Shown here piece after piece: positions 7,157 through 24,998 of a DNA stretch of 54,726 bases; the first letter of the stretch is position 1, and the number at the start of each line of letters is the position of its first letter. The translations under genes were made by a program, and so were the position numbers. The notes below the pieces were generated by a model. That model was not told where the DNA came from, made no database searches, and worked only from the letters and a program-made list of their open reading frames with translations. Source of the DNA: Lachnospiraceae bacterium (lineage in GTDB: Bacteria; Bacillota; Clostridia; Lachnospirales; Lachnospiraceae); the NCBI GenBank assembly GCA_017513005.1, contig JAFWDM010000028.1, positions 1 through 54,726 of the forward strand, written 5' to 3'.

Positions 7157-8020
7157 ATGAGACATAGAATAGAGGAACAGTGCGTGGCGTCTTTTACGGC
7201 AGCACTTGTAGAAAATGAGAAGAGTGCCGGAACGATCGCACAATATAGAAGGAGCGTAGAAGCTTTTGCCAGGTGGCTGGGCGCAGACATTGAATTCGGA
7301 AAGCAGGAGGCTGTCGCCTATAAGACCGAGCTTTTCCGAAAATATAAGCTGTCGACGGCCAATGCCAATATTGTTGCCCTGAACTCTTTTTTTAAGACTA
7401 TGGGCTGGCATGACTGTTGCCTGTCTACCTTCAGGATGCAGAAAAAGAGCTTTCGAGACGAGGACAGGGAGCTTTCGCAGGAGGAATACCAGCGCCTGCT
7501 GGCCGCTGCCCGCGCGATGCGTAGTGACCAGCTGTATCACATCATGCTGACAATTGCCTGTACCGGGATCCGGATCAGCGAACTGGCATTTATTACAGTG
7601 GAGTCTCTGTCCCGGCGGCAATGCTGTGTCTATCTCAAGGGCAAATACAGGGAGATCCCCCTCCCCTCCAGGCTGTGTGAACTGCTCAGGGAGTACTGTG
7701 CCGGTCATGGCATCCGGACCGGCCCGGTTTTTCTTTCATCAGAAGGAAATCCGGTTGACAGAAGCAACATTCTTCACAGGATGAAGAGGCTGTCACAGGA
7801 AGCGGACGTTCCCGCTCCCAAAATCTTTCCCCACAATTTGCGGCATTTCTTTGCTGTCAATTACTATGGCTGTGATCATGATATTGCCCGCCTGGCCGAT
7901 CTGCTGGGGCACTCGGATCTGAATACAACGCGCATCTACACCCGGATCAGCATGGATCAGCTGGTTTCCATTCTGGATCAGGTAGAAAAGAAAATGCAGC
8001 CTGCGTCTGATAAGGAGTGA
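7157..8020 (+). CDS. tyrosine recombinase/integrase, first of a pair
   Basis: A 287-residue XerC/D-like recombinase. An N-terminal SAM-like core-binding domain (residues 5-95, with TIAQYRRSVEAFARWL) is followed by the catalytic domain. All catalytic residues are present: R139 in TGIRISE, a beta-hairpin lysine (K161 or K163), H226 and R229 in PHNLRH, H252 in LGHSD, and the nucleophile Y261 in TTRIYT. It cuts and rejoins DNA through a 3'-phosphotyrosine. It is paralogous to the next gene (shared KLSTAN, NSFFK, MGWHDCC, PHNLRH). As a short protein without a large arm-binding domain it resembles Xer or phase-variation recombinases more than phage integrases. Confidence 0.85.
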   Translation: MRHRIEEQCVASFTAALVENEKSAGTIAQYRRSVEAFARWLGADIEFGKQEAVAYKTELFRKYKLSTANANIVALNSFFKTMGWHDCCLSTFRMQKKSFRDEDRELSQEEYQRLLAAARAMRSDQLYHIMLTIACTGIRISELAFITVESLSRRQCCVYLKGKYREIPLPSRLCELLREYCAGHGIRTGPVFLSSEGNPVDRSNILHRMKRLSQEADVPAPKIFPHNLRHFFAVNYYGCDHDIARLADLLGHSDLNTTRIYTRISMDQLVSILDQVEKKMQPASDKE

Positions 8021-8132
8021 AAGTCGGCTGCACCAACCCGGGCAGATGATTCGAATGTGCAAAAAAGTCTGCTGGAATGGAATATCCTTTTAGGCTGTTT
8101 AAATATTTTCTATTTTTATGTATGAATTAAAG

Positions 8133-8161
8133 TGTACAATTGACCTGTATATGGCTATAAT
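8133..8161 (+). promoter_or_regulatory. candidate promoter of a short leader transcript
   Basis: TGTACA (8133-8138) and TATAAT (8156-8161) are 17 bases apart, between the two recombinase genes. A terminator at 8207-8238 lies about 40 bases after the predicted start. Confidence 0.45.
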
Positions 8162-8206
8162 AAAAGATATTTAGAAGCCCACACGAAATAATCAACAGGC
8201 AGGGCT

Positions 8207-8238
8207 CGGGAACAGGGGAAAAACTGTTCCCGTTTTTT
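8207..8238 (+). terminator. intrinsic terminator or attenuator between the recombinase genes
   Basis: CGGGAACAG and CTGTTCCCG (9-base perfect stem, 8-base loop) are followed by T6. Upstream AGCCC (8176-8180) can pair with GGGCT (8202-8206), so a leader RNA of about 70 bases from 8168 would fold into two stems. Read-through would feed the second recombinase gene. Confidence 0.7.
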
Positions 8239-8318
8239 CGTATTGTATGTCGCTGACTGCTGAAGGAGAAAAAACGATCCTGCTTGCTGATTTTCCGGCC
8301 GGTTTAATCTTCATCGTG

Positions 8319-8340
8319 CAAGACTCGCGTGTGAGTCTTA
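8319..8340 (+). repeat. dispersed palindrome, copy R1
   Basis: CAAGACTCG, loop CGTG, TGAGTCTTA, preceded by ATCTTCATCG. This is the most diverged full hairpin of a family also seen at 38795, 43819, 47230 and 50005. It lies just upstream of the second recombinase gene. Confidence 0.55.
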
Positions 8341-8376
8341 AAGAAACTGCCAGTATGAAAGAAGGAGACAAGAGAC

Positions 8377-9393
8377 ATGGGAGATATGGCCAACGGTCAG
8401 ATTACCTGTGTACGGACAGACTTTACATGCGGAAATTGTGAGGCTGACAGAACCGGTGCCTGCACCGACTGGCGTATTACCGATCACCTGCTTCACTGTT
8501 TCAGAGAAGGCATGGAAGAGAAGGAAAAAAGCTCATCAACGATCCGGAAGTACCTCAGAGACCTTGCACATTTCCGATCCTGGCTCAAATCCACATATAG
8601 TAAGGATGCTGTGTATGTCACAGAAGGTGTACAGGGAGAGTCTGTACGGGGAGAGCCCTTTCTCAATAAGGAGAGAGTGCGGCAATACAAGCAGTATCTC
8701 AGGGACAACTATAAGCTTTCTACTGCCAATTCCATGATTTCGTCGATCAATTCTTTTTTTAAATACATGGGCTGGCATGATTGCTGCGTCACGACCTTCA
8801 AGGTCCAGCGCGACACCTTCCGCCGTTCGGAGAAAGACCTGTCTGTGCAGGAATACCAAAGGATCCTGCAGGCTGCCGCCGGCAGGCAGGGAAGGGGAAA
8901 ACAGGGCGGCCGGCAGTTGGCACTCATCATGGAGACTCTGGCCGGAACCGGGATCCGGATCAGCGAGCTGCCCTTCATCACAGTCGCCTCCCTCCATACC
9001 CGCCGCACCGCTGTTTCTCTCAAGGGAAAGAGCCGCATGATCCTGCTCCCCGGGCAGCTCTGTAAAAAACTTCTCGCCTACTGCCGGGAGAGAGCCATCA
9101 CGGAGGGAAGCATCTTCATTACCCGCACAGGCAGACCCCTTGACCGCACCAATATCCTCCACCGGATGAAGGAACTCAGTGCCCTGTCGGGAGTCTCCAG
9201 GGAGAAGATCTTCCCTCATAACCTCCGGCACCTCTTTGCCGTGACCTATTATGAGAAGGAAAAGGACATCGTCCGCCTCGCGGACATTCTCGGACACTCC
9301 AATATCAACACCACCAGGATCTACACCCTTGTCAGCTGTGAGACCCAGCTGGACATTCTGGACAGGATCTGTGGAATGCTTGATCCGGTATGA
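8377..9393 (+). CDS. tyrosine recombinase/integrase, second of a pair
   Basis: A 338-residue paralogue of the preceding recombinase with a longer N-terminus. Catalytic residues R194 (TGIRISE), K216 or K218, H281 and R284 (PHNLRH), H307 (LGHSN) and Y316 (TTRIYT) are all present. The first 30 residues hold four cysteines (C11, C18, C21, C29) that could form a small zinc site absent from the first copy. AAGGAGA lies before the ATG. Two adjacent active-looking recombinases suggest either a heteromeric XerC/XerD-like pair or a recent duplication with diverged specificity. The neighbouring dif-like site and surface genes point to rearrangement of a surface locus. Confidence 0.85.
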   Translation: MGDMANGQITCVRTDFTCGNCEADRTGACTDWRITDHLLHCFREGMEEKEKSSSTIRKYLRDLAHFRSWLKSTYSKDAVYVTEGVQGESVRGEPFLNKERVRQYKQYLRDNYKLSTANSMISSINSFFKYMGWHDCCVTTFKVQRDTFRRSEKDLSVQEYQRILQAAAGRQGRGKQGGRQLALIMETLAGTGIRISELPFITVASLHTRRTAVSLKGKSRMILLPGQLCKKLLAYCRERAITEGSIFITRTGRPLDRTNILHRMKELSALSGVSREKIFPHNLRHLFAVTYYEKEKDIVRLADILGHSNINTTRIYTLVSCETQLDILDRICGMLDPV

Positions 9394-9417: not shown

Positions 9418-9445
9418 AAACCGCATAATGCATAGTTAGAGGTTA
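9418..9445 (+). other. degenerate dif-like site, candidate recombination site 1
   Basis: Read as 11-6-11: left arm AAACCGCATAA, spacer TGCATA, right arm GTTAGAGGTTA. The left arm matches the strong site at 9906 in 9 of 11 positions and the right arm in 7 of 11; its own two arms are only weakly symmetric. It starts 25 bases after the second recombinase gene. Confidence 0.35.
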
Positions 9446-9904: not shown

Positions 9905-9934
9905 ATTACCGCATAATATGCATTATGAGGTAAT
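9905..9934 (+). other. Xer/dif-like recombination site 2
   Basis: An 11-6-11 site: left arm TTACCGCATAA (9906-9916), spacer TATGCA, right arm TTATGAGGTAA (9923-9933). The arms are inverted copies with one mismatch, and one further base pairs on each side. The inner half-arms CGCATAA and TTATG are the same as those of the E. coli dif site, the substrate of XerC/XerD tyrosine recombinases. It sits 58 bases before the AP2 start codon and 510 bases after the recombinase pair. Confidence 0.6.
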
Positions 9935-9991
9935 CCAGGGACACCTGCCGGTGGTACAGGAGGGCTTCGCAGGAGTGTGAAGGGTAAGGAT

Positions 9992-10936
9992 ATGGGAAGA
10001 AGAAATGATATCGCGGGCAGACGCTACGGAAGTCTTGTAGCTGTAGAACCTACGGAAGAAAGAAAAAACGGATATACGATATGGATCTGTCAGTGTGACT
10101 GCGGCAGCCGGATCCGGGTTCCTTCGCGCTATTTAAAGAACGGATGGACCACTTCCTGCGGCTGTGTACAGAAACCGCCCCGCTACGACGATCTGACCGG
10201 CAGACGGTTCGGTAAGCTCACGGTCATCGGAAAGACCAAAGAGCAGAATACCCGCGGGGATTACCTCTGGGACTGTGTGTGTGACTGCGGCGGCAGGATC
10301 CTGGCGCCGGCCGGCCAGCTGAAGAGCGGCTACCGTAAGAGCTGCGGCTGTCTCAGCCGTCCGCCCCTCAAGGACTGGATCGGCAAACAATTCGGCAGGC
10401 TGACTGTGACTGCCTACGATGGAAAGCGGGACGGAAAGCACTACTGGAAATGCCGGTGCAGCTGCGGGAATGAAGTGTCCGTATGCCAGTCCAGCCTCAA
10501 GATCGGTCATACCATGAGCTGCGGCTGCCTCAACACACCCTATAATTCCAAGCACTTTGTGGACGGTACCTGTATCGAGGCCATCCGCAGCAAGACTATC
10601 CCCAAGAATAACACCACCGGTGTACGGGGCGTCTACAAAAATAACCGCATCGGTAAATGGTGTGCGCAGATCACCTTCAAGGGCAGGACCAGGTATCTGG
10701 GAAGCTATGACACTCTGCGTGAGGCTGCACTAGCCCGCCAGAGAGGCGAGGAACTCTTTGAGGATTTTCTCCAGCAATATGAGGAGCAGATCCTGCGGGA
10801 AGATGCCGGAAAGGCGGACGCGGACAGAAGAAGGGACAAGGCCTCCAAAAACAGCAAAGAACATGTAGAGAATGCAACTGCGGAAATCATGAAGATGGTC
10901 CGCATAAGGACAAACGAAGCTATACAGGCCATGTGA
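9992..10936 (+). CDS. DNA-binding protein with three zinc-ribbon repeats and an AP2 domain
   Basis: A 314-residue protein. Three tandem repeats of about 60 residues follow the pattern G+RFGxL...W.C.CDCG......L..G...SCGC, each with the Cys spacing of a small zinc ribbon. A C-terminal AP2/ERF-type domain follows (NNTTGVRGVYKNNR, WCAQITFKGRTRYLGSY, EAALARQRGEEL), then a charged tail. In bacteria such AP2 proteins accompany phages and integrating elements, sometimes fused to HNH nucleases, but no HNH motif is seen. The ATG at 9992 has GAAGGG 7 bases upstream and is preferred over a GTG at 9977. It lies between the recombination site and the adhesin gene, so a regulatory or recombination-accessory role is inferred. 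Confidence 0.75.
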   Translation: MGRRNDIAGRRYGSLVAVEPTEERKNGYTIWICQCDCGSRIRVPSRYLKNGWTTSCGCVQKPPRYDDLTGRRFGKLTVIGKTKEQNTRGDYLWDCVCDCGGRILAPAGQLKSGYRKSCGCLSRPPLKDWIGKQFGRLTVTAYDGKRDGKHYWKCRCSCGNEVSVCQSSLKIGHTMSCGCLNTPYNSKHFVDGTCIEAIRSKTIPKNNTTGVRGVYKNNRIGKWCAQITFKGRTRYLGSYDTLREAALARQRGEELFEDFLQQYEEQILREDAGKADADRRRDKASKNSKEHVENATAEIMKMVRIRTNEAIQAM

Positions 10937-16900: not shown

Positions 16901-18346
16901 AATATAGCTGATGAAGGGTACGAAATAACACAGATACAGCATACAGGCGGAACCAGAAACGGAGACACGATAACCGGCACTATTGATGAGCTTGACACCC
17001 GTTTCTACAACCAGTTTAAAAATACGGTGAAGTCACATAAGGATGTCAGTGCAGAACTAAAGGTTAAGAAGATCACCGAGTATACGTGGCCTACAGAGCA
17101 GTACTACAGATTTACTCTGGCTGCAGGGACAGCTGCATATACGGATGGAACGACAGGGATATCCCCGATGCCGGAAACCATTGCGGAGAACACTGATAGT
17201 GTGGTGGACGTTTACGACGATGACAGAACACCTGACCACACTACAACGTTCGGTACAATCCGATATGAAAAGGCTGGAACATATACCTATACGGTAACAG
17301 AATCCTGGGCACCGGGGTATGCACAGAAACCGGAAGCAGCGACGATAACTGTAACAGTAGAAGCACAAGACGATAAGCTTGTTGTTACAAATATCGAAGA
17401 CGATCTTGGAACTACTGATTTTACTGCTGCCACGGAGACGAATCTTGCAACAGGCCTGACCACACAGACAAACAGAATTAAAAGGATCAATGTTTCGGCC
17501 ACCAAAGAGTGGGTGAAGGCGGATGGAACGACAGTTATAGATACACCTCCTGCAGGTTCTAAAGTCACTTTTACACTTTATAAAAATAACGAGCCTACTG
17601 ATCAGTCAGTAGAACTTGATGGTGTGATTGATCAAGCGGGCGAACTGGAGGCATGGGTAGCGACTTTCAGTGACCTGCCGCAGTATACGGTGATAACAAA
17701 TGAAACGACAACCGGTGAAGGCGATGATGCTGTAACTACATATACAAATACATCTGAGCTGATCACCTATACCATTGCGGAAACGACAACATGTCCGGGC
17801 TTTGAGCTGGTGACAACGAATCCGGTTCCGGATCGTGGAGTTATCCAAAATAAACAGCTTGCAAGAGAAGTAATAATCCAGAAAAAGAATCAGGATGCTT
17901 CAAGACCGCTTTCCGGCGCAATCTTCAGTCTCTACACCAAAGAGGGATATGAAAGCACCCCTAAAGCAGATCCGATTCAAACAAACCTTGAGTCTTTGGC
18001 AACAGAGGGGAAGGTCGGTTTGATCGAATTAGGAGAACTGACATATGGTGATTACTACCTGGTAGAGACAAAGGCACCTGATGGATTTAACTTACTGACG
18101 GATCCGGTAGGGCTGAAAGTTGAAGCAGACATAATAACAATTACTCAGGGCAATTCGTTCAGAGTGGATGATGCACCGGACGATACGACATACGATGCAT
18201 TTATTACAAACAGCACGGGATATGAGCTTCCGCACACCGGTGGTCCCGGCACATTCACTTATACATTAGGCGGCTTGATGCTCGTCATCGCATCCGTCTT
18301 GATGTACGGCTTCAGGATGAGGCGTAGAGAAAGGAGGTTAAACTAA
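10991..18346 (+). CDS. giant LPXTG-anchored VWA/Cna_B adhesin, probable pilus tip protein
   Basis: A 2451-residue exported protein. A basic N-terminus and hydrophobic signal end in the YALVLPAITME motif shared by many Firmicute adhesins. Next come His/Cys repeats (HQHDDSCFEL, HQHTDECYERVLVC, HTHSTECYE) and a long acidic Ser/Thr/Asp linker. Two copies of a module (LTGSVIAASGEAYEINVTYG and LTGGFVSADGKSYEVTVTYG) end in FSVYTI or FSTYTI. A VWA domain follows, with MIDAS motif DTSSS at D1150. SpaA/Cna_B-like repeats from about residue 2010 end in the YYLVETKAPDGFNLL E-box, then L2413-PHTG, a membrane helix and RMRRRERR. The start at 10991 has a weak AGAGAG site. The order tip, then backbone pilin, is typical of sortase-assembled pili. 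Confidence 0.85.
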   Translation: MKRLPERIREILSKRRVRRFLTRVVSIVGALVVFATTYALVLPAITMEKQAACGIEEHQHDDSCFELQLICGEEESETHQHTDECYERVLVCEKPVHTHSTECYETFEETYEEPADTDAGTEEDTMSGQTAGTDSSETENGTEAAAADGIRDTDSTGASDENTDRDETGSEKADAKDIDPSRSGSTEDSDDSDKEFTEKHKSSSSKVQADAVNPEDGTIEGESLDAAEVAVTEDKTYAGLQTTLDLAGVLSDRTGLYYYPAKYDEDGIADTTAIRSDSATDWEKVKDDTQIASADFVRVYLAYTIPAGTLNKDHYTARYRLPGALRLTENRVEAINKSKNGISKEMEASTEITRSSTDADFEEDFPTDEETWLGAEAIEGTRSPDRILDKAETEYISATVKVENIYKSGEYRGQDLIFTFTPYTVRKNQTTYDADGKTLAEGEKVRGFFSLDFNPDQISCDESGTAEILFAKESDVNDVASGQFAQKEIRRVLHLKDSQNSISGNGAIGEDATDTAAEAVNTDNTEQDRTEKKQTGKGNQTEENKDGTDAVTADQKDGLAAAEEKFLTGSVIAASGEAYEINVTYGEDAQIPDGSELRVREILESDSEYKDYSEQAVEKVEEVAAQIAEENADAGDNAAAKADSSTGNADGNNPDGQALPRKSNGYVRVFDIEIWYNGQKIEPEEEVLVEIRLLDAPENKETSLDVVHFAEDGPEVLSTDQNTNTRDTADTSIQFTTDAFSVYTIVGTETLTGGFVSADGKSYEVTVTYGADAGIPNGSTLRLVELAKDSEEYQEAKKTIDTLHDENSEAGDVVDVIEGIDAEAPVTDVDMSTDEDASTDEDTSADEDASIESEDDAYFASVTKENEIIEGFSALDISILDPEGNVIEPKGEVTVSIVMKSLPEGMNEADLIQNLEVHHLLEEDGKIKPEQVAGASIESSDITANENGAAIEFVTESFSTYTISWENGGQARNIRLHFVDDQGHDIDGFTYNGQSIDNGNTNLATLIPQNGMFNLSNFKKEGYSLSNTHVGQFEDMNNNTPTIIRNEIERADNTVHYWTFNTGNDTAGNTRRDFPTGTTDLYLVYNSTAMSGQGGEGTDPGGDVPDLGAIGNKKEATSNNDGTYKLHLSVTGNAQNKQSDPHVNVIVVFDTSSSMASNYIPNSDSKTRLEAAKDELNEMATELLANNTTAHPDAVEMALVTFNRNAQIISLGESNWTTDAITYTSAVGTYRNGRKIGSSETSAGDTNTGVGIAKGTNWAQGLQKAVDLMGHDEDPTYVLFITDGAPSQYWPSNQATGTYADAEGCYLGARDEARRLVGGEGAIMYGLFAYGSTNDYSKDYLGQLVDYAYNNGSAKDTYRINAADNETLRQKLKEILKAINMNFAYANVEINDGITGLSTVIFEHIDTESFEYTITYRNYTLQTAYTEEELHLTPNADGTVTIPSKTYGVLDNSASGGVKTITTQEVTVEGARFSNTDEKSVVWDMNKAEGEGDAAIYMLENGWTYTVSFDVWPSQTSYDLVAALNNHILEYGDDYHYTDESDNTNHTITFDEYKDQITNTSPYTLLTNTHASVKYQQVTETVDQQGNISYEYGDVKEIPITYTSNMGLVSQQMPVKKEFAHSINAQDPYSRIRFYIMMDDQYYLSNGTLSEDLIPYTESEDGITPALHTLGMDLSSSNNWTGNIYIAPGVIVDERDENGVGNMDVLETGHCYSLYEVITEGNVYEYEFTPQTVRPMVVNGTLKYLVRQDKYNNPASGAKTYPIDGDIYYETTASVQGLIGTNRKTAELDITKIVDDPDDLMTEAEENAETFTYRVTLKIPDKYPNNTPVDPAGIVGYEYVPRTQSNAFTLYGYQTTDTDQGFTEDVERFSGKTFRGWNTLIYRDLAQWANVDGRIVSLKDDDGNVLWKIPAENGYHTITYDMTLKQDEVIRFTNLPSGTIYTIQEIYANKYPADNAGGITSGRPPISEGSNIADEGYEITQIQHTGGTRNGDTITGTIDELDTRFYNQFKNTVKSHKDVSAELKVKKITEYTWPTEQYYRFTLAAGTAAYTDGTTGISPMPETIAENTDSVVDVYDDDRTPDHTTTFGTIRYEKAGTYTYTVTESWAPGYAQKPEAATITVTVEAQDDKLVVTNIEDDLGTTDFTAATETNLATGLTTQTNRIKRINVSATKEWVKADGTTVIDTPPAGSKVTFTLYKNNEPTDQSVELDGVIDQAGELEAWVATFSDLPQYTVITNETTTGEGDDAVTTYTNTSELITYTIAETTTCPGFELVTTNPVPDRGVIQNKQLAREVIIQKKNQDASRPLSGAIFSLYTKEGYESTPKADPIQTNLESLATEGKVGLIELGELTYGDYYLVETKAPDGFNLLTDPVGLKVEADIITITQGNSFRVDDAPDDTTYDAFITNSTGYELPHTGGPGTFTYTLGGLMLVIASVLMYGFRMRRRERRLN

Positions 18347-18412
18347 CAGCCTCTGATCTCGACGAATAACTGACGCCGAAATCTGAAACCGTGATAGTAC
18401 AACTTAATAAAA

Positions 18413-18455
18413 GGCTGTCCCGACGGAAAACTGTCGAGGTGCCGGAGGGACAGTC
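18413..18455 (+). other. structured spacer between the adhesin and pilin genes
   Basis: GGCTGTCCC (18413-18421) pairs with GGGACAGTC (18447-18455), with an inner CGAC/GTCG stem. There is no T-run, so it is more likely a processing site, stabiliser or partial attenuator setting the pilin-to-adhesin ratio than a full terminator. A second small stem (AAGTCC/GGACT, about 18510-18535) lies just before the pilin ribosome binding site. Confidence 0.5.
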
Positions 18456-18556
18456 AAAATAACCAGCTGTGGTTTGAAACAGTAAACGCTCTTCATGGGC
18501 TGAAACAAAGACTGAAGTCCTTGAAGGGACGGACTAACAAGAAAGGATGAACGATC

Positions 18557-20137
18557 ATGAAGAAAATGAAAAAGATCTTCGCTCTGCTGATTGCCATGGT
18601 TATGGTGCTTGGTATGAGCACAAGTGTATTTGCAGCCGATCCAACAACTGGCAGCATTGAAATTACGAGTCCTAAGACAGACCCTAATGCAGATAACACA
18701 TACTATGATGCGTATAAGATTCTTGACATGACCACAACAGGTGCTACCAATGATGCTGGCGACTATACCGCCGTTGCTTACACCATCAATTCTGCCTGGA
18801 CAGGATTTTTTGCAACTGGTGCTGCTGGTGCAGGTTATATTGTTGACACTAATACAGGTAATCTAAATGAGATTACTGTAGATGGAGTAAAGAAATACAT
18901 CAATATCACAGATTCTAATGTGGCGGAGTTTGCAAAGGCAGCATTCAAATATGCGCAGGATAATAATATTGCACCTACAACTACTCAGACAGTAGCAAAA
19001 GGCGCAGAATCCGTAAAATTTGAAAATCTTGCACTTGGTTATTACATGGTTTATCCGAGAGGTGCTAGCGTTCAGAGTGGCGATTATACAAGTATCGTTT
19101 CCATTTCCAATACGGCACCGAATGGAAAGGTTGCACAGAAGGCTGAGTGGCCTGGAATAACAAAGACTGCTGACGACATTTCTGTCGAGGTTGGCCAGAA
19201 AGTTACTTATACACTTTCCAGTAAGGTTCCGGATACCACCGGTTATACAAAGAAGTATGAAATGACATTCGCTGATACGACAACAGCCGGACTTACATTT
19301 GATGGTGTTGATTCTATTGTTGTTAAGATTGGTTCAGCAACATTAACGAAGGATACAGATTATACAGTATCTACTGAAACTGCGGATTTCTCTGTAACGA
19401 TTGATATGCTTACAGGTGAAGAGGGAAGCAAGACAGCTAAATATACTTATAATGATCCGATTACTGTTACTTACACAGCAACTGTAAATGATCAGGCTGT
19501 TACAAAAATCGACGAGAACCATGCAACCCTGACATATCACAACAATCCTAAGGACGATACCAGCAAAGAGACGACACCGCCGGTAGTTGTAAAGACATTC
19601 TCTGCTAAGGTCGTAATCAAAAAGGTCGATGGCTCTGATAAAACTACGCCACTGGAAGGTGCAAAGTTTGTCCTTAGAGCTAAGACAATTGGCCAGGCTG
19701 AAGGAGATACCCATGAGTCTGATCGCGCGGCAGGTAAATACTATTACTACGACGCAACAGCAAAAGATGTTAAATGGGTTACAGTCACAAGTGAAAAGGC
19801 TGAAGATCTTGCTAAAGATACAACAATCACTGTTGTAACTACAGACGCACAGGGCAATGCAAATTTCGATGGTCTGGAAAATGGTACATATGAACTTATC
19901 GAGGTCGAGGCACCTGCTGGTTACAATCTGCTGACAACTCCTACGGAAGTAACAGTTGCTGGTTCCGACGCAGATGCGACTACTCTTACAATTACGACTC
20001 CGGTAGAGAATAACTCTGGTACACAGCTTCCTTCCACCGGTGGCATCGGTACCACAATCTTCTACATCATCGGTGCAATCCTTGTAATCGGTGCTGGCGT
20101 TGTTCTGGTAACCCGCCGTCGTATGAACGTGAACTAA
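18557..20137 (+). CDS. SpaA/FctA-type backbone pilin with sortase motif
   Basis: A 526-residue isopeptide-forming fimbrial protein. The signal peptide is cleaved near VFA-AD (residue 26). The N-terminal domain contains the GYYMVYPRG segment. A middle domain (KTADDISVEVGQKVTYTL) and a C-terminal Cna_B domain (KVVIKKVDGSDKTTPLEGAK to the E-box ELIEVEAPAGYNLL) follow. The anchor is L491-PSTG, a hydrophobic helix and TRRRMN. AAAGGATGA precedes the ATG. This is the expected major subunit polymerised by a class C sortase onto the adhesin encoded upstream, but no sortase gene lies nearby. Codon use is more AT-rich than in the flanking chromosome. Confidence 0.85.
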   Translation: MKKMKKIFALLIAMVMVLGMSTSVFAADPTTGSIEITSPKTDPNADNTYYDAYKILDMTTTGATNDAGDYTAVAYTINSAWTGFFATGAAGAGYIVDTNTGNLNEITVDGVKKYINITDSNVAEFAKAAFKYAQDNNIAPTTTQTVAKGAESVKFENLALGYYMVYPRGASVQSGDYTSIVSISNTAPNGKVAQKAEWPGITKTADDISVEVGQKVTYTLSSKVPDTTGYTKKYEMTFADTTTAGLTFDGVDSIVVKIGSATLTKDTDYTVSTETADFSVTIDMLTGEEGSKTAKYTYNDPITVTYTATVNDQAVTKIDENHATLTYHNNPKDDTSKETTPPVVVKTFSAKVVIKKVDGSDKTTPLEGAKFVLRAKTIGQAEGDTHESDRAAGKYYYYDATAKDVKWVTVTSEKAEDLAKDTTITVVTTDAQGNANFDGLENGTYELIEVEAPAGYNLLTTPTEVTVAGSDADATTLTITTPVENNSGTQLPSTGGIGTTIFYIIGAILVIGAGVVLVTRRRMNVN

Positions 20138-20371
20138 TAAAGCCAGCTTTATTAGTCAGGCCTCCGGCGGATCGCGATGATGCACCAAGGAATGCTTGCT
20201 TCGCAAGCTGTGCATCACGCGGCGATAAACGACAAGCGTTTATCGATAAGAAGTCGAACCGACCTACTAAAAAACAGTGGTCAGGTACAGGCAATCCACC
20301 TGACCCGACCACATCAAATTAAGCAATGAACCCCATCAAAAAGGGAGCGGAGGCCAAGGTCTCTGCTCCCC
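20135..20371 (+). other. hairpin-dense 3' flank of the pilin gene
   Basis: Five or so stems follow one another: TAATAAAG/CTTTATTA (20135-20154, overlapping the stop codon), GATGCAC with an inner GCTTGC/GCAAGC (about 20180-20217), CGATAAACG/CGTTTATCG (20222-20244), GTGGTCAGGT/ACCTGACC (about 20276-20311) and GGGAGC/GCTCCC (about 20344-20371). Only the region as a whole is reported; which stems form in RNA is unknown. Confidence 0.5.
20250..20277 (+). repeat. spacer repeat X, copy A
   Basis: Starts GAAGTCGAACCGACCTAC and ends AAAAAACAG. Homologous copies lie at 21311, 22258 and 23263, each at the pilin-flank side of a toxin-antitoxin module or of the terminal ORF. Confidence 0.6.
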
Positions 20372-20407
20372 GGGGAAAATCATTTACCTACATAATCACA
20401 TAGCATA

Positions 20408-20462
20408 CACCGGAACGAAATGACCGGGTCACACACCTGATCCATGTTTTGTTCCGACAACA
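20408..20462 (-). terminator. terminator repeat Y, copy A, downstream of brnA
   Basis: On the minus strand the stem GATCAGGT/ACCCGGTC follows GGAACAAAACATG. The 55-base block is nearly identical to 21465-21520 and similar to 22351-22406. In all three copies the stem remains paired, by G-U or compensating changes. It lies at the 3' end of the brnTA module. Confidence 0.6.
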
Positions 20463-20518
20463 TGAACATTAAAAAGAAAACCTCCAACATTGCTGCTGAA
20501 GGTTTTCAGGAAATCAGT

Positions 20519-20842
20519 TTACAGGCTGCGAGATACTAATTGTGGATCATTGATAGCATTGTCAAGCAGACGGCTGAGAAATCCAGTATAACCCTTGCCG
20601 GTTGCTTTAGCTTTTTCAAGAGTATCCGGTGAGATACGAAGAGCAACGACAGGTTTTGCCTGCTTATTACGCCTGGCTTTTGCCAGAGCGGCCATCTCAG
20701 CATATTGCTCAAGGGTTAGTTCCGGAGCATCCTCATCAGGTGTGATTGGTCTGGAAGCTGCAAGTTCGATTTCTCGAATCTGAGCCTCAGTAGGCTGCTG
20801 ACCTGTACGAATAACCGTACGTACGATGTTCTCATTCTCCAT
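20519..20842 (-). CDS. brnA: BrnA-type antitoxin
   Basis: A 107-residue protein. The C-terminal half carries the ribbon-helix-helix signature of BrnA antitoxins (KPVVALRISPDTLEKAKATG, then GYTGFLSRLLDNAI). It would neutralise the BrnT RNase and repress its own promoter. The ATG at 20842 has AGGAAAGGAGG upstream; longer in-frame starts lie inside brnT and are not supported. It overlaps brnT by 11 bases, so the two are translationally coupled in the usual toxin-first order of brnTA. Confidence 0.85.
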   Translation of the reverse strand: MENENIVRTVIRTGQQPTEAQIREIELAASRPITPDEDAPELTLEQYAEMAALAKARRNKQAKPVVALRISPDTLEKAKATGKGYTGFLSRLLDNAINDPQLVSRSL

Positions 20843-21119
20843 AGTAGATCCTCCTTTCCTGGGAGTTGGCCATTCGGGCTGAAATGATTCGAGCGGCTTC
20901 GTCACGCATGGTATAGACGACATATAAGATGCCTTGAACGCATCCAAGAACCACATAACGGTCTTCGTCCTGACTATGCAGCTTGTCGTAGTATTCTATC
21001 CGCTCCTCATCGGCAAACACTAAGGCTGCAGTTTCAAAACTAATACCGTGCTTCTTGATATTCAGACGGTTCTTATTATCGTCCCACTCTACGAGTGTTT
21101 CAACGATAGTAGTTCTCAT
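20832..21119 (-). CDS. brnT: BrnT-type toxin (RelE-fold ribonuclease)
   Basis: A 95-residue protein of the BrnT family. Hallmarks are VEWDDNKNRLNIKKHGISFETA at the N-terminus and the DEAARIISARMANSQERRIYY C-terminus, matching the family's conserved R-x-I-S-A-R-x-A-x-x-x-E-R-x-x-Y. In characterised members it is an mRNA interferase with a RelE-like fold. It is the first gene of the module, directly behind a strong promoter. Confidence 0.9.
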   Translation of the reverse strand: MRTTIVETLVEWDDNKNRLNIKKHGISFETAALVFADEERIEYYDKLHSQDEDRYVVLGCVQGILYVVYTMRDEAARIISARMANSQERRIYYGE

Positions 21120-21125
21120 GACTAA

Positions 21126-21154
21126 AGTATAACAAAAAGTATTACAATAGTCAA
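21126..21154 (-). promoter_or_regulatory. promoter of brnTA
   Basis: On the minus strand, TTGACT and TATACT are separated by 17 bases and lie 7 bases before the brnT start codon, so the transcript is leaderless or nearly so unless initiation differs. Confidence 0.7.
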
Positions 21155-21202
21155 TACGCGCACGGGACAGGAGTTATTTGAGTGATTTGTGAAGGTGTAA
21201 TG

Positions 21203-21304
21203 CATCATGTGTCAGGTGGTACAGAGGCTGCCATCATTTACATCGTTGATGCGATTCTTGTAATTAGTGTTGGCATTATCTTGGTAACCAGGTATCACAT
21301 GAAC
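21203..21304 (+). pseudogene. decayed C-terminal tail of a second sortase-anchored pilin
   Basis: The frame reads VSGGTEAAIIYIVDAILVIS and on to LVTRYHMN, aligning without gaps to the end of the backbone pilin (PSTGGIGTTIFYIIGAILVI and on to LVTRRRMN). The LPXTG leucine and proline are lost and nothing pilin-like precedes it. It begins about 50 bases from the brnTA promoter and is followed by copy B of the pilin 3' flank. It is a duplication remnant, not a working gene. Confidence 0.7.
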
Positions 21305-21310
21305 GCACAG

Positions 21311-21338
21311 GAAGTCAAATCGACCTGTAAAAAACAGC
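21311..21338 (+). repeat. spacer repeat X, copy B
   Basis: Starts GAAGTCAAATCGACCTGT and ends AAAAAACAG, with 5 or so differences from copy A at 20250. It lies directly after the pilin-tail remnant, in the same position as copy A after the intact pilin gene. Confidence 0.6.
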
Positions 21339-21464
21339 GTCTTGAGACAGGTGGTCCACCTGCTTCGACTGCAACGTATTTTGAAAAGGACATCAACATA
21401 GAGAAAATTGTCTGAAGGCTTAGACTTGGCTGAAAATAACTCCTCTTTATGGTGTATGTTAATT

Positions 21465-21520
21465 CACCGGAATAAAAATGACCGGGTCTCACACCCGATC
21501 CATGTTTTGTTCCCACAACA
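21465..21520 (-). terminator. terminator repeat Y, copy B, downstream of the YoeB-type toxin
   Basis: Minus-strand stem GATCGGGT / ACCCGGTC followed by ATTTTTATT. It matches copy A at about 49 of 56 positions. Confidence 0.65.
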
Positions 21521-21566
21521 GAAAAGAGCCTTAGTAATAACTGAGACTCTTGACGAGGATGAGAGA

Positions 21567-21830
21567 TTATCGCTCATAATGAGTCCAAAGACTCACGATT
21601 TTGATCGTTTTCTCTTCTTCAAAAACCTGATAAATCAAGCGGTGCTGAATGTTGATCCTCCGAGAATAAAGCCCTTGTAGATCACCCACCAATTTTTCAT
21701 AAGAGGGTGGTGCCTGATATGGGTTTTCTCGAATGACATCAATGAGGGCTTTAGCCTTCGCATCCAGATGGGCAGCTTTTAGTTTAGGGATATCCTTAGT
21801 GGCAGTTTTAGTGTAGACGATTTTATACAC
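21567..21830 (-). CDS. Txe/YoeB-family toxin
   Basis: An 87-residue RelE/ParE-superfamily toxin of the YoeB type. Visible features are YTKTATKDIPKLKAAHLDAKAK, the NPYQAPPSYEKLVGDLQGLYSRRIN segment and the C-terminal VSLWTHYER, where the family's conserved catalytic H-Y lies. YoeB binds the ribosome and cleaves mRNA. It directly follows its antitoxin gene with a 0-base gap, in the antitoxin-first order typical of yefM-yoeB. Confidence 0.9.
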   Translation of the reverse strand: MYKIVYTKTATKDIPKLKAAHLDAKAKALIDVIRENPYQAPPSYEKLVGDLQGLYSRRINIQHRLIYQVFEEEKTIKIVSLWTHYER

Positions 21831-22079
21831 TTACCAGACCACCTCCTCCTCGGAGACTGTTTCCGCCAGAGAAGTGTTGAGTCCTTCGATTAGCTTCTCT
21901 TTCATTCCCGGAACAGAAGTAAGATATAAGGTCTCTATCAAACCGAGATATTCTTCTTCGCTGATCATCACTGCGTTGCCGTCTTTGGTAGTAATATTAA
22001 CAGGCTCATTAAAGCGGACAGTGTTTTCAACCATGGAGTAAACATTCTTTCTGAAATTGGTAATGGTAGTGGTAGTCAT
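21831..22079 (-). CDS. Phd/YefM-family antitoxin
   Basis: An 82-residue antitoxin. The N-terminal DNA-binding fold (TTTTITNFRKNVYSMVENTVRFNEPVNIT and then GNAVMISEEEYLGLIETLYL) is characteristic of YefM, and a disordered acidic C-terminus (LAETVSEEEVVW) would wrap the toxin. The ATG at 22079 has GGAGG at suitable spacing; a GTG at 22088 abuts the same site and is less likely. It represses its own promoter in known systems. Confidence 0.85.
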   Translation of the reverse strand: MTTTTITNFRKNVYSMVENTVRFNEPVNITTKDGNAVMISEEEYLGLIETLYLTSVPGMKEKLIEGLNTSLAETVSEEEVVW

Positions 22080-22100
22080 TGTAGACACCTCCTCTCTATG

Positions 22101-22134
22101 CGTACATTATAACGTACATGATACAGGCGGTCAA
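22101..22134 (-). promoter_or_regulatory. promoter and TGTACG-type operator of the yefM-yoeB-like module
   Basis: On the minus strand, TTGACC and TATAAT are 17 bases apart. The -10 is embedded between two TGTACG repeats (22102-22106 and 22114-22119 region), close to the TGTACA motifs known as YefM operators. Confidence 0.7.
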
Positions 22135-22257
22135 TACCTACCCTTGTAAAAGTAAAGATGAATGATTCTAGGCACTTTGGGAGATACGCAAAGATATTTT
22201 AAATAATTGCGTATGGCATCTAAAGTAAACACAGGATCCGACCTGGGCATTTTACCG

Positions 22258-22290
22258 AAGCCGACCTAAGAAAAAACAAAAGCCGACCCA
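22258..22290 (+). repeat. spacer repeat X, copy C
   Basis: GAAGCCGACCTAAG, A-rich, then a second CCGACC. It is preceded by GGGCATTTTACC; the same block recurs at 23250-23296. Confidence 0.6.
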
Positions 22291-22350
22291 CATAAAACTG
22301 AAGTATCTACATAGAACTGATATGTGAGGGCGGGATGGTTGGAACATAGC

Positions 22351-22406
22351 TTGGAATGCAAAAAAGACCAGGTTATACACCCGATCCAGGTTTTGTTCCA
22401 ACAACA
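22351..22406 (-). terminator. terminator repeat Y, copy C, downstream of hicB
   Basis: Minus-strand stem GATCGGGT / ACCTGGTC followed by T6, the clearest intrinsic terminator of the three Y copies. It shares TGTTGGAACAAAAC upstream of the stem with copies A and B. Confidence 0.7.
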
Positions 22407-22467
22407 GAAGAATAGTCCGCAGGTGATTACCAACCGACCATCAATGAGAATAAATGACATAGAGTTG

Positions 22468-22836
22468 CTACGACACAACAGCGTCATTTTTAGAGAGTAG
22501 GTAGAGGCAATATTGGTTCATACTAATTCCCTCTTGTTTTGCATGAATAGAGAGGGAACGGTGCAGACTTTTTGGCATCCGTAGTTTGAACTGGCCGGAG
22601 TACTGCGACAGATCTGTATCAATAACAGGTTCAGCAATTTGTATTCCTTCTTGAATAGCGGCTTCCAGCCATGCTCTTTTTGCGTCAAGGATATTAGCCA
22701 GAGCGCCTTCCATCGTGTCAGAGCAGGTAATGCACCCGGGGAGATCCGGATAACGTGCTGCATAACCACCTTCATCGATGTCTGGGATGAGTTCAAGGCG
22801 ATAAGGGAGATTCATATAGTATTCAATTGATTTCAT
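22468..22836 (-). CDS. hicB: HicB-family antitoxin
   Basis: A 122-residue HicB antitoxin. The N-terminal partial RNase-H-like domain has YRLELIPDIDEGGYAARYPDLPGC and a DTMEGALANILDAKRAWLEAA helix. A C-terminal ribbon-helix-helix part follows (KLRMPKSLHRSLSIHAKQEGISMNQYCLYLLS). It would bind HicA and repress the module. The ATG at 22836 has GAGGA 7 bases upstream and lies inside the 3' end of hicA (14-base overlap). Confidence 0.9.
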   Translation of the reverse strand: MKSIEYYMNLPYRLELIPDIDEGGYAARYPDLPGCITCSDTMEGALANILDAKRAWLEAAIQEGIQIAEPVIDTDLSQYSGQFKLRMPKSLHRSLSIHAKQEGISMNQYCLYLLSKNDAVVS

Positions 22837-23026
22837 TATTGTCATCCTCACTTTCGATAACTTCCTTTACCATCTCGACGTAATTCTTTTTGATGGGTTC
22901 ATGTTGGGGGATAGTAATGGGGATACAGCCTGGTTTGCGAAATGTTTTGTGACTGCTGCCTCCTGATGGCCCAGTCATAATGTAGCCATATGACTCAAGG
23001 ACTTTACGCAACTCATCGAATCGCAT
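22823..23026 (-). CDS. hicA: HicA-family toxin, N-terminally truncated by a nonsense codon
   Basis: A 67-residue frame with the HicA double-stranded RNA-binding fold: FDELRKVLESYGY, then GPSGGSSHKTFRKPG with the catalytic histidine, then ITIPQHEPIKKNYVEMVKEVIE. HicA cleaves mRNA. The family's usual start lies at 23077, where AGGAGGTGCTCC precedes ATG-TCC-TAA: codon 3 is a stop (23069-23071). The same frame then continues without interruption as FEKLLKRILSLDKN into this ORF. Translation could only restart at 23026, which has no good ribosome binding site, so the toxin is probably silenced or expressed very weakly. Confidence 0.75.
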   Translation of the reverse strand: MRFDELRKVLESYGYIMTGPSGGSSHKTFRKPGCIPITIPQHEPIKKNYVEMVKEVIESEDDNNEIN

Positions 23027-23095
23027 GTTCTTATCAAGAGATAAGATGCGTTTGAGTAACTTTTCAAATTAGGACATGGAGCACCTCCTAATATC

Positions 23096-23124
23096 ATTAT
23101 AAATGGTGTCATATACGATGTCAA
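23096..23124 (-). promoter_or_regulatory. consensus sigma-A promoter of hicAB
   Basis: On the minus strand, TTGACA and TATAAT, both perfect consensus, are separated by 17 bases, 19 bases before the original hicA ATG at 23077. Confidence 0.8.
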
Positions 23125-23249
23125 TATTGGAATAAGAAGTCATTATTATATAAGTCAGTGGGGATGTTTATAACAGTGAGGCTACTTCCGCTATTCTTTT
23201 CGTTATAAGTATGGACTTCACTATCATTAGCAAAATACTGGACTCGACC

Positions 23250-23296
23250 AGGGCATTTTACCGAAGCCGACCTAAGCAAAAACAAAAACCGACCTA
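23250..23296 (+). repeat. spacer repeat X, copy D
   Basis: GGGCATTTTACC, GAAGCCGACCTAAG, an A-rich run and a second CCGACCTA. About 90 percent like copy C over some 40 bases. No Y terminator copy follows. Confidence 0.6.
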
Positions 23297-23408
23297 TGCA
23301 AAACTAGGCAACAACAGGATTTCGTATGTAAACGTTGTAGATTCAATGGATCATGCGGCAGGGTTATTTCATAAAGTAAAATGAATAATGTCGATTCTCA
23401 GAGTTTAT

Positions 23409-23456
23409 CCAGAGTTATGAGTTTTATTCAAAATCACTCATGACTCTGGCTTTTTT
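23409..23456 (+). terminator. strong terminator-like hairpin in the leader of the next gene
   Basis: CCAGAGTTATGAGT and ACTCATGACTCTGG form a 14-base stem with one mismatch, followed by C and T6. It lies 46 bases upstream of the ORF at 23502 and no gene precedes it on this strand, so it may act as an attenuator or shield that ORF from outside transcription. Confidence 0.7.
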
Positions 23457-23501
23457 CTGCCATGTATAGTCATACGCCACCTATGCAGAAAGGAGAGGTT
23501 T

Positions 23502-24077
23502 ATGGCGAAAACTGAGAAAACATATCCTGAATGGGTGCAAAAGTATCGGACAAAAGGAATGATGGTTAGAAAAAATGGAAATTCCTACTATCTTTACAAA
23601 CGGACATCTAAAAGAGTTCCCGGTAAGAAATATCCACAACCGATTGATAGGTATGTTGGCGTTATTACACCGGAGGGGATTATTGAAAGCAAAAATAGAA
23701 AGGTGGGATCAAACAGTGTTGAGGTCTGGGAGTATGGATTTTCCAAAGCCATACTCGATCTGTGTCCGGATGGATGGAAAACGCCGCTGGGGGACGAATG
23801 GGAAGATGTACTCAAGGTAATTATCTGCAGCTGGTCTGATGCCAGTTATTTTCACAGAGAAAAACTTAAAGACAGGGATGGATTCCGGTGCCGGTTCAAT
23901 GTACAGGCAGCTTCGCTCAGCAGGTGTATACGGAAAGAACATAAGGTGGACATCAAGGAGCTTGCGCCTTTAAAAACGATCTATCTGGTAAAGATTGGAA
24001 AAGAAAATGTGATCTCCAGGATCGAACCGGAGCAGGAAGCGCTCCTTGGCCGTCTCGGTCTGAAACTGGAGGTGTGA
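23502..24077 (+). CDS. hypothetical protein with transposase-N-terminus-like features
   Basis: A 191-residue basic protein behind a strong AAGGAG site. The part YYLYKRTSKRVPGKKYPQPI, then DRYVGVITPEGII, recalls the N-terminal strand-rich region of IS1634/IS4-type transposases, and the C-terminal half is helical with a Cys/His-poor core. No DDE catalytic residues can be recognised and the length is less than half that of such transposases. It may be a stand-alone accessory protein or a transposase fragment. Its place at the end of the toxin-antitoxin array is consistent with a mobile origin. Confidence 0.5.
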   Translation: MAKTEKTYPEWVQKYRTKGMMVRKNGNSYYLYKRTSKRVPGKKYPQPIDRYVGVITPEGIIESKNRKVGSNSVEVWEYGFSKAILDLCPDGWKTPLGDEWEDVLKVIICSWSDASYFHREKLKDRDGFRCRFNVQAASLSRCIRKEHKVDIKELAPLKTIYLVKIGKENVISRIEPEQEALLGRLGLKLEV

Positions 24078-24141
24078 GAGGATCGGATCTTTTGTAAGGT
24101 CGCGCTGAGGTCACATGAAGGAAGTCGAGGATTCCCGCAGT

Positions 24142-24188
24142 CCGCAGGCAAAACCCGGGCCAACCGGGGTGCCGGGTTTTGCCTGCGG
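24142..24188. other. 17-base perfect inverted repeat between converging genes
   Basis: CCGCAGGCAAAACCCGG (24142-24158) and its exact complement (24172-24188). There is no T-run on either side, so it is a strong structure but not a canonical terminator. Confidence 0.65.
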
Positions 24189-24206
24189 AAAAACCTTTGT
24201 ATTCGC

Positions 24207-24998
24207 TCACGCCACCAGAAATTTGTATTTTTTTACGCTGTACAGGGGGATGAACGGGAGAAGGATCGGCACGGTGCGGACGTATTTCTGATAGTCGGGG
24301 TCGTCTCCGTAATTCGCATCCTGGCGGATCTCGAGTCTCCGCGCGCCGCTGAACATGACCCAGACGATCAGTAAAAAGCCCAGCAGGGCAGAGATCCACT
24401 GCAGGGGTCCCCTGAGGGCGGTCATTCCGGTGAGCAGCATTCCCAGCCAGAGCAGGAGCTCGCCCAGGTAGTTCGGGCAGCGGACGATGCGATACAGCCC
24501 CGTATCTACAAAGCGGCGGCTGTTTTTTTTCTTTGCCAGAGTTTTCTGGTGGTCCGCGACGGTTTCGAGGAGGATTCCCAGAGCCATAAAGAGGATGCCG
24601 ATCCAGAGCATGGGATCCGCAGGTGTTCCGTTGTAGAGACGGAAGTAGAGCGGGCTTGTCATCAGGGTATAGAGGAGCGCACAGGAAAGCCACAGGGCCA
24701 GTTTGGCGCCCAGGGGCATTTTTTTACTCCTTTCTATCTCCGGGTTGAGCACATGCCGGTAGGCTGTGCTCCTGCTCTCGCGGAAAAGAAGATAGCCGGA
24801 CAGCCGCAGGCCGTAGAGGACGAGCAGGAGACAGGCGAGCAGGGCAGGGAGCGTGAGGATCCGGTGAAAGCCTGCCGCCAGGACGACCGCGATGGCTGCG
24901 ATCGACAGGCCGTAGCCTACGGAGAAAAACCAGATGTACATATGAAAACCGATAGACGACGCCAGAAGGGCGGCCAGAAAAACAAACAGGATGCTCAT
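24207..24998 (-). CDS. DUF1295/steroid 5-alpha-reductase-like membrane protein
   Basis: A 263-residue membrane protein with about seven hydrophobic segments. The C-terminal half has the DUF1295/ICMT-like signature: ETVADHQKTLAKKK, FVDTGLYRIVRCPNYLGELLLW (the RxPNYxGE box) and the YQKYVRTVPILLPFIP end. The fold binds NADPH or a methyl donor in characterised relatives; the substrate here is unknown. The ATG at 24998 is preceded by AGAAGGAA at long spacing. It stands alone, upstream-adjacent to the secreted HAD phosphatase on the same strand. Confidence 0.8.
   Translation of the reverse strand: MSILFVFLAALLASSIGFHMYIWFFSVGYGLSIAAIAVVLAAGFHRILTLPALLACLLLVLYGLRLSGYLLFRESRSTAYRHVLNPEIERSKKMPLGAKLALWLSCALLYTLMTSPLYFRLYNGTPADPMLWIGILFMALGILLETVADHQKTLAKKKNSRRFVDTGLYRIVRCPNYLGELLLWLGMLLTGMTALRGPLQWISALLGFLLIVWVMFSGARRLEIRQDANYGDDPDYQKYVRTVPILLPFIPLYSVKKYKFLVA

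Follow-up and report, generated by a model that had tools for sequence, protein, structure and literature searches.

The window analysed here covers positions 1 to 54,726 of contig JAFWDM010000028.1, from the draft genome of an uncultured, gut-type Lachnospiraceae bacterium (2.68 Mb in 130 contigs, 97.4% complete). It carries three toxin-antitoxin (TA) pairs behind the gene for a surface pilus, with worn copies of the pilin tail between the pairs. The pilin gene (18557..20137, plus strand) is intact and encodes an LPXTG major pilin of the SpaH/EbpB type (NCBIfam NF033902, 152.7 bits, cut-off 95). Its Pfam matches are GramPos_pilinBB, SpaA and Gram_pos_anchor, and with isopeptide domains found alongside (TIGR04226, 68.5 bits) it has the character of the LPXTG pilin of a pilus operon. 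A gene for a large VWA- and SpaA-domain surface protein precedes it. No sortase was found on the contig (PF04203, zero matches there, with seven on five other contigs of the genome). All three TA pairs point toward the 3' end of the pilin gene, and three copies of an imperfect palindrome of about 55 bases, hereafter the block, lie in the series. A sequence-only reading had taken the pairs for a cassette array in which these blocks mark off the modules. The comparisons below assign the block to the 3' flank of the pilin gene, and the verdict reached is that the window holds a variable pilus locus with passengers.

The three pairs are BrnTA, YefM/YoeB and HicAB, in series on the minus strand with a promoter each, and in this the sequence-only reading was borne out by Pfam, NCBIfam and a promoter scan. 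The first consists of the antitoxin gene brnA (20519..20842, PF14384, E 2e-10) and the toxin gene brnT (20832..21119, PF04365, E 1.8e-26), the second of the toxin gene yoeB (21567..21830, TIGR02116, 87.4 bits against a cut-off of 51.8, Pfam YoeB E 5e-11) and the antitoxin gene yefM (21831..22079, PF02604 (PhdYefM), E 2.5e-12), and the third of the antitoxin gene hicB (22468..22836, PF05534 and PF15919, HicB E 1e-11) and the core of the toxin gene hicA (22823..23026, PF07927, 25.8 bits, just below the cut-off of 27). The minus-strand promoters are of the sigma-70 type with 17-base spacers, and agree with the consensus at 12 of 12 bases before hicA (23124-23096), 11 before yefM (22134-22106) and 10 before brnT (21154-21126). 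Each promoter is thus followed by an adjacent toxin and antitoxin of matching families, as in type II TA systems, with the reservation that HicA is below its cut-off and interrupted: an in-frame stop breaks its N-terminal extension, upstream of the toxin core. This extension is open in all six loci of relatives that can be read from residue 1, and the frame is shifted further on in L051 and L054. A terminator scan gave brnA an intrinsic terminator of its own, with a 14-pair stem and T5 (20507-20476, minus strand), which stands before block 1.

Block 1 (20408..20462, plus strand, as are all blocks and flanks below) closes the 3' flank of the intact pilin gene; block 2 lies at 21465..21520 and block 3 at 22351..22406. 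Identity is 89% between blocks 1 and 2, 79% between 2 and 3, and 75% between 1 and 3 (block-to-block E values 9e-14, 2e-10 and 3e-7), so that their homology beside unrelated genes, as first proposed, is confirmed. DNA search and covariance model agree that the source genome has the block at these three places only, all in the array. The block had also been read as the terminator of the modules. Blocks 2 and 3 do qualify as minus-strand terminators, but block 1 does not, and brnA has its own. Folding energies relative to shuffled sequences give a mixed picture over the two strands (z of -3.5, -2.4 and -0.8 for blocks 1, 2 and 3 on the plus strand; 0.05, -1.2 and -3.6 on the minus strand). Paired base changes said to preserve the stem were not upheld: one of 19 pairs changes on both sides, a result equalled by 140 of 500 shuffles. 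In the stem, 92.9% of alignment cells pair, compared with 37-65% when the partners are slid, as is expected of a structure derived from these same sequences, and a second block type has a double change in one of its 10 stem pairs. Rfam, run on 18000-24500 with E up to 1, offered no known RNA family for the block, giving just two microRNA matches below the gathering score, at 24138-24192.

Between the pilin gene and block 1 lies flank 1 (20251..20407), which is well kept, has a hairpin near 20343-20371 (by eye) and is 82-85% identical to the pilin flanks of two relatives, G041 and G008 (alignment scores 232 and 190). Further flank copies follow behind the pairs, and their kinship was judged by alignment score against the best of 100 shuffles. 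Flank 2 (21311..21464) is decayed but of the same kind, with about 54 bp alignable to flank 1 (spacers at 20250 and 21311, score 37, best shuffles 22-26). Flanks 3 (22227..22310) and 4 (23233..23305) are 85% identical to each other (spacers at 22258 and 23263, 91 against 26) and are of the kind found behind the pilin of another relative, G044 (50 and 49 respectively, shuffles 23-27), with a weaker likeness to the pilin flank of L127 (33 and 30, shuffles 24-25); positions 22257-22405 match the G044 pilin flank together with its block (E 2e-10). The four spacers had been described as homologous throughout. The data support two matching pairs, 20250/21311 and 22258/23263, but the link across the pairs ranges from borderline (20250 against 22258, 29, shuffles 23-27) through 24 for 20250 against 23263 (shuffles 23-24) to no match for 21311 against 22258 or 23263 (18, shuffles 23-37). 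No block was detected beside flank 4 by DNA search or covariance model. Just ahead of flank 2, positions 21233..21305 (plus strand) are a remnant of the membrane-anchor part of a pilin 3' end (72.6% identical to 20057-20129, E 4e-5), which supports a pilin origin of the repeats. Judged from the sequence, the remnant and the two flank kinds suggest the tails of more than one former pilin.

The block was then sought in other genomes. A DNA query found it in four of 99 genomes including its own, two genus-level covariance models in 10 of 62 and in 7 of 62, and a corrected pattern run over species genomes at eight places. Three of the ten (G004, G054 and G021, 22.8-25.9 bits) were dropped as unrelated hairpins on reading. 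Elsewhere in the order, three of 391 other genomes, all of one genus, matched at 30 bits and were taken by eye for coding sequence; the corrected pattern had zero matches in viral contigs. Eight copies are known outside the window, one per genome, and this is a lower bound, as the pattern misses copies like block 3 and the models were strictly filtered. Six are in the 61 other genomes of the genus and two in the bins L127 and L129, labelled Ruminococcus sp. and Blautia sp.; the other block-bearing genomes carry the label Lachnospiraceae. The range known so far is thus one genus of Lachnospiraceae plus two further metagenome bins. Six of the eight copies (G039, G044, G058, G008, G041 and L129) stand directly 3' of the flank of an LPXTG pilin gene, and in the seventh, L127, the contig begins inside a pilin-type flank (156 when aligned to flank 1, with 27 the highest among 100 shuffles). 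The proposal that the blocks are repeats of a pilin 3' flank therefore held. The outcome that would have spoken for a generic dispersed repeat, or a miniature inverted-repeat transposable element, did not occur: under the strict filters the block is in seven of 62 genus genomes, at one place in each of the six others and at three here, all in the array.

What lies 3' of the block varies. In four of the eight copies (G039, G044, L127 and L129) it is a pilin truncated at its 5' end. In G041 a sortase follows after about 300 bases; G008 has an antisense gene recognised by eye as DUF3800, accompanied by a DUF3800-XI RNA (Rfam); G058 has a 102-residue frame that matches nothing in Pfam and a gene bearing a recombinase zinc-ribbon domain; and G011 has a small convergent frame. 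Sortases in relatives were identified from sequence, and the query used for this also hits two PF04203-positive genes in the source genome. In none of the eight copies is the block followed by a TA pair. In the 11 copies, judged by eye, the likeness runs no more than about 15 bases past the outer stem. Most likely, this common right edge marks where a functional hairpin, a terminator or an mRNA 3' element, comes to an end and beyond which the DNA is free to change. In G014 (locus L096), a pilin-type flank stands behind a fragment that resembles how the large surface protein begins, and the likeness stops at the block.

Homologues of the pairs within the genus were sought by DNA similarity, with at most four candidates scored per genome. 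YefM/YoeB was found in G053, G019, G028 and G012, BrnTA in G015, and looser homologues of HicAB (64-70%) in seven genomes; in that sample no other genus genome has a module and the block on one contig. Similarity between the window and the five close homologues stops at the gene or its promoter (21567-22137, 21569-22117, 21568-22117, 21569-22079 and, for BrnTA, 20544-21154), short of the block, which has no match in any of these genomes. An integron-like site moving with its cassette gene is thus not seen in G053, G019, G028, G012 or G015; the comparison covers YefM/YoeB and BrnTA, with HicAB compared less closely. At least these pairs therefore arrive without a block and, since the block elsewhere mostly sits in pilin flanks, it belongs to the pilin and not to the cassettes. 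The claim that it borders TA cassettes accordingly fails. Plasmid and phage collections gave three records and one record, respectively, with single-module matches at 65-72%.

One arrival of a pair can be read directly. G053 and G044 share a backbone that is 92-96% identical; at one point G044 has 27 bases, a near-empty site, and G053 has 626, which contain yefM-yoeB. The G053 pair is convergent with the locus and stands directly behind a terminator-like hairpin (by eye), about 0.8 kb 3' of the sortase. As judged from mechanical reading frames, the pair ends convergently on a neighbouring gene in four of the five genomes (G053, G019, G028 and G015, not G012), so these pairs often arrive at the ends of transcription units.

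Other insertions were noted near pilin genes in relatives. Between pilin and sortase, G053 (locus L098) has 399 bases that G044 lacks at that point; by eye, they include a promoter-like site and a strong hairpin. Relatives of this insertion are found behind a pilin in G026 (84.5%) and, in part, beside yoeB in G028. As a guess, it could be a small RNA or a type I TA module; Rfam had no hits at gathering score in L098 or L099. In G099 (locus L111), 1.2 kb is inserted between pilin and sortase; the inverted ends of this insertion measure 26-29 bases, and it carries a gene resembling an insertion-sequence transposase (by eye).

The pilin genes themselves bear what may be marks of exchange. The window is 87% identical to G041 and G008 where the preceding surface-protein gene ends and the pilin gene starts, and 90-93% at the pilin end; in mid-pilin, blastn matched nothing. 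In the four truncated copies, the block's right edge is followed within about 20 bases by sequence resembling intact pilins, which sets in inside the gene at a junction that differs among them (three mid-gene, one near the end). The copy in L127 and the short one in G044 are open, and those in G039 and L129 are frame-broken. From the pilin anchor through the flank after it, and again over 1.9 kb, G044 and G053 are 96% identical, save for the 399-base insertion, and G044 carries a different pilin, with flank and block, in front of this G053-like stretch. Similarly, L127 and G052 were compared over 385 bases starting at the anchor and are 95% identical there, and in L127 the block stands in front. 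Both patterns are as additive replacement of a pilin would leave them. One alignment of the block to pilin codons was judged to be forced by the block bases included, and was not used.

Taken together, the reading favoured here, which is somewhat better than an even bet, is that pilin turnover leaves 3' remnants behind and that ordinary TA pairs accumulate behind the terminal hairpins. The block would be the hairpin at the far end of a major pilin's 3' flank in a sortase-type pilus locus. As pilin genes are conserved at their ends (signal peptide; LPXTG anchor and 3' flank) and variable in the middle, alleles could swap by homology of the ends. Some exchanges would be additive, so that a new pilin with flank and block lands ahead of the resident one, which would lose its 5' part and keep its 3' end and its own flank. 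More than one such exchange in the window would give the repeated flanks, namely an intact pilin with flank 1, a remnant with flank 2 and then, with no pilin to be recognised, flank 3 with its block and flank 4 with none. Type II pairs would arrive independently and settle directly behind terminal hairpins, pointing toward the pilin. In favour of this, flanks 1 and 2 are nearest the G041 kind and flanks 3 and 4 nearest the G044 kind. The stepwise gain that had been proposed is accordingly supported in part, by the two flank kinds, by a different state in every relative and by the finding that, with up to four candidates scored per genome, no other genome of the genus joins a module and a block on one contig.

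Several observations weigh against this reading. In G011, the flank end and block follow a gene that is not a pilin (a predicted secreted protein without Pfam match). No other block is followed by a TA pair, and the one arrival that is visible, in G053, is itself without a block. A recognisable piece of pilin stands beside flank 2 alone, so that at flanks 3 and 4 it is the kind of flank that points to a former pilin, and the two kinds may be distant kin (29 against shuffles of 23-27; 33 against 24 with L127). With G026, which has the nearest pilin, the middle does align, at 69% over 1.39 kb. Decay is unordered: flank 1 is by far the best kept, and flank 2, which scores 37 at most, falls below flanks 3 and 4 (50 and 49 with G044; 91 with each other). 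Since decay among flanks 2-4 does not follow distance, the sequence of events and the order of layers are a reconstruction. Finally, all genomes compared are drafts or bins, in which mis-assembly is possible.

The main rival is tandem duplication, by which the pilin 3' end, flank and block were copied in place and the pairs inserted between copies, with no exchange of pilins. The nearest kin are indeed adjacent, blocks 1 and 2 (89%) and flanks 3 and 4 (91), and duplication explains these nearest-neighbour pairs about equally well. However, flanks 3 and 4 fit G044 (50 and 49) better than they fit flank 1 (29 and 24), flank 1 fits G041 and G008 (232 and 190), and the relatives carry remnants of different pilins behind the block. 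Duplication thus appears unlikely. An extension of the turnover reading is about as doubtful, or slightly more so: the flank and hairpin would be a docking arm for additive pilin replacement, the window a layered record of three to four layers, the deepest found, and the TA pairs would travel with the allele and could favour its spread.

Some further features lie around the pilus genes. Upstream of them are two genes for Xer-like tyrosine recombinases (7157-8020 and 8377-9393). Between these and the pilus genes, two inverted 24-base sites (9420-9443 and 9908-9931), 79% alike, enclose 464 bases and are a candidate for an invertible or excisable switch. Also ahead of the pilus genes, 9977-10936 encodes a protein with a sub-cut-off match to the AP2 domain, and genes similar to it stand 3' of the pilin in G008 and G026. 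The source genome has a second pilus locus (L107, G000:C5 18000-34000) with a pilin and two sortases and no match to the block.

If the block were instead a recombination site, a recombinase other than an integron integrase, such as the Xer-like pair (7157-9393), might insert genes at its right edge. In the window as in relatives, the imperfectly palindromic block stops at a shared right edge with unrelated DNA after it; both recombinases lie upstream of the pilus genes and exceed the Pfam cut-off (PF00589), although all NCBIfam matches are below theirs, and G041 has a homologue some 5 kb beyond its sortase. Against such a cassette system, close homologues of two pairs have no block, and the other 25 stretches searched, many of them short, have no homologue of the two recombinases. 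The best match to an integron integrase (TIGR02249) in this draft genome is 81.8 bits, far from the cut-off of 265; all 14 control genomes likewise match below the cut-off and none above. The core boxes of attC sites are RYYYAAC and GTTRRRY; by eye, the 11 copies of the block end in GGAAY and GTTCC or variants, which are unlike this consensus. A cassette system is therefore improbable. Least probable of all is that the pairs are retained because addiction protects the pilus locus from loss, as, despite three pairs at one surface locus and another at the G053 pilus locus, pilus genes lie within the 6-16 kb examined in just one (G053) of the five relatives with close YefM/YoeB or BrnTA homologues, and the interrupted HicA and lack of a sortase on the contig speak mildly against a well-guarded locus.

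These results suggest that what looks like a TA cassette array can arise without a cassette machine, through turnover of a surface gene and independent arrival of pairs behind a terminal hairpin. Near-empty, occupied and layered sites are all readable here, for the study of sortase-type pilin turnover in uncultured Lachnospiraceae. Among the titles listed for open-licence literature on TA systems, pilins, sortases, Lachnospiraceae and integrons, none describes the arrangement.

Known systems resemble it in part. Integron cassette arrays, such as the Vibrio superintegron, are rich in TA pairs, and the window shares with them pairs in series, one orientation and a short imperfect palindrome 3' of each; it differs in that the integrase match is sub-cut-off and the palindrome is that of the pilin flank, absent from close homologues of two pairs. 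The pilE/pilS system of Neisseria has silent pilin loci. An intact pilin beside 5'-truncated copies, as in G039, G044 and L129 (and in L127, where the intact pilin is off the contig), is similar, whereas the pilin class is unrelated and two of the four remnants here are frame-broken. In gene content there is a likeness to SpaH/EbpB-type sortase pilus operons, with their LPXTG major pilin, a VWA/SpaA surface protein before it and, in the relatives, a sortase behind it; the window departs from them in having no sortase on its contig, and in carrying three to four copies of the pilin flank with TA pairs between them.

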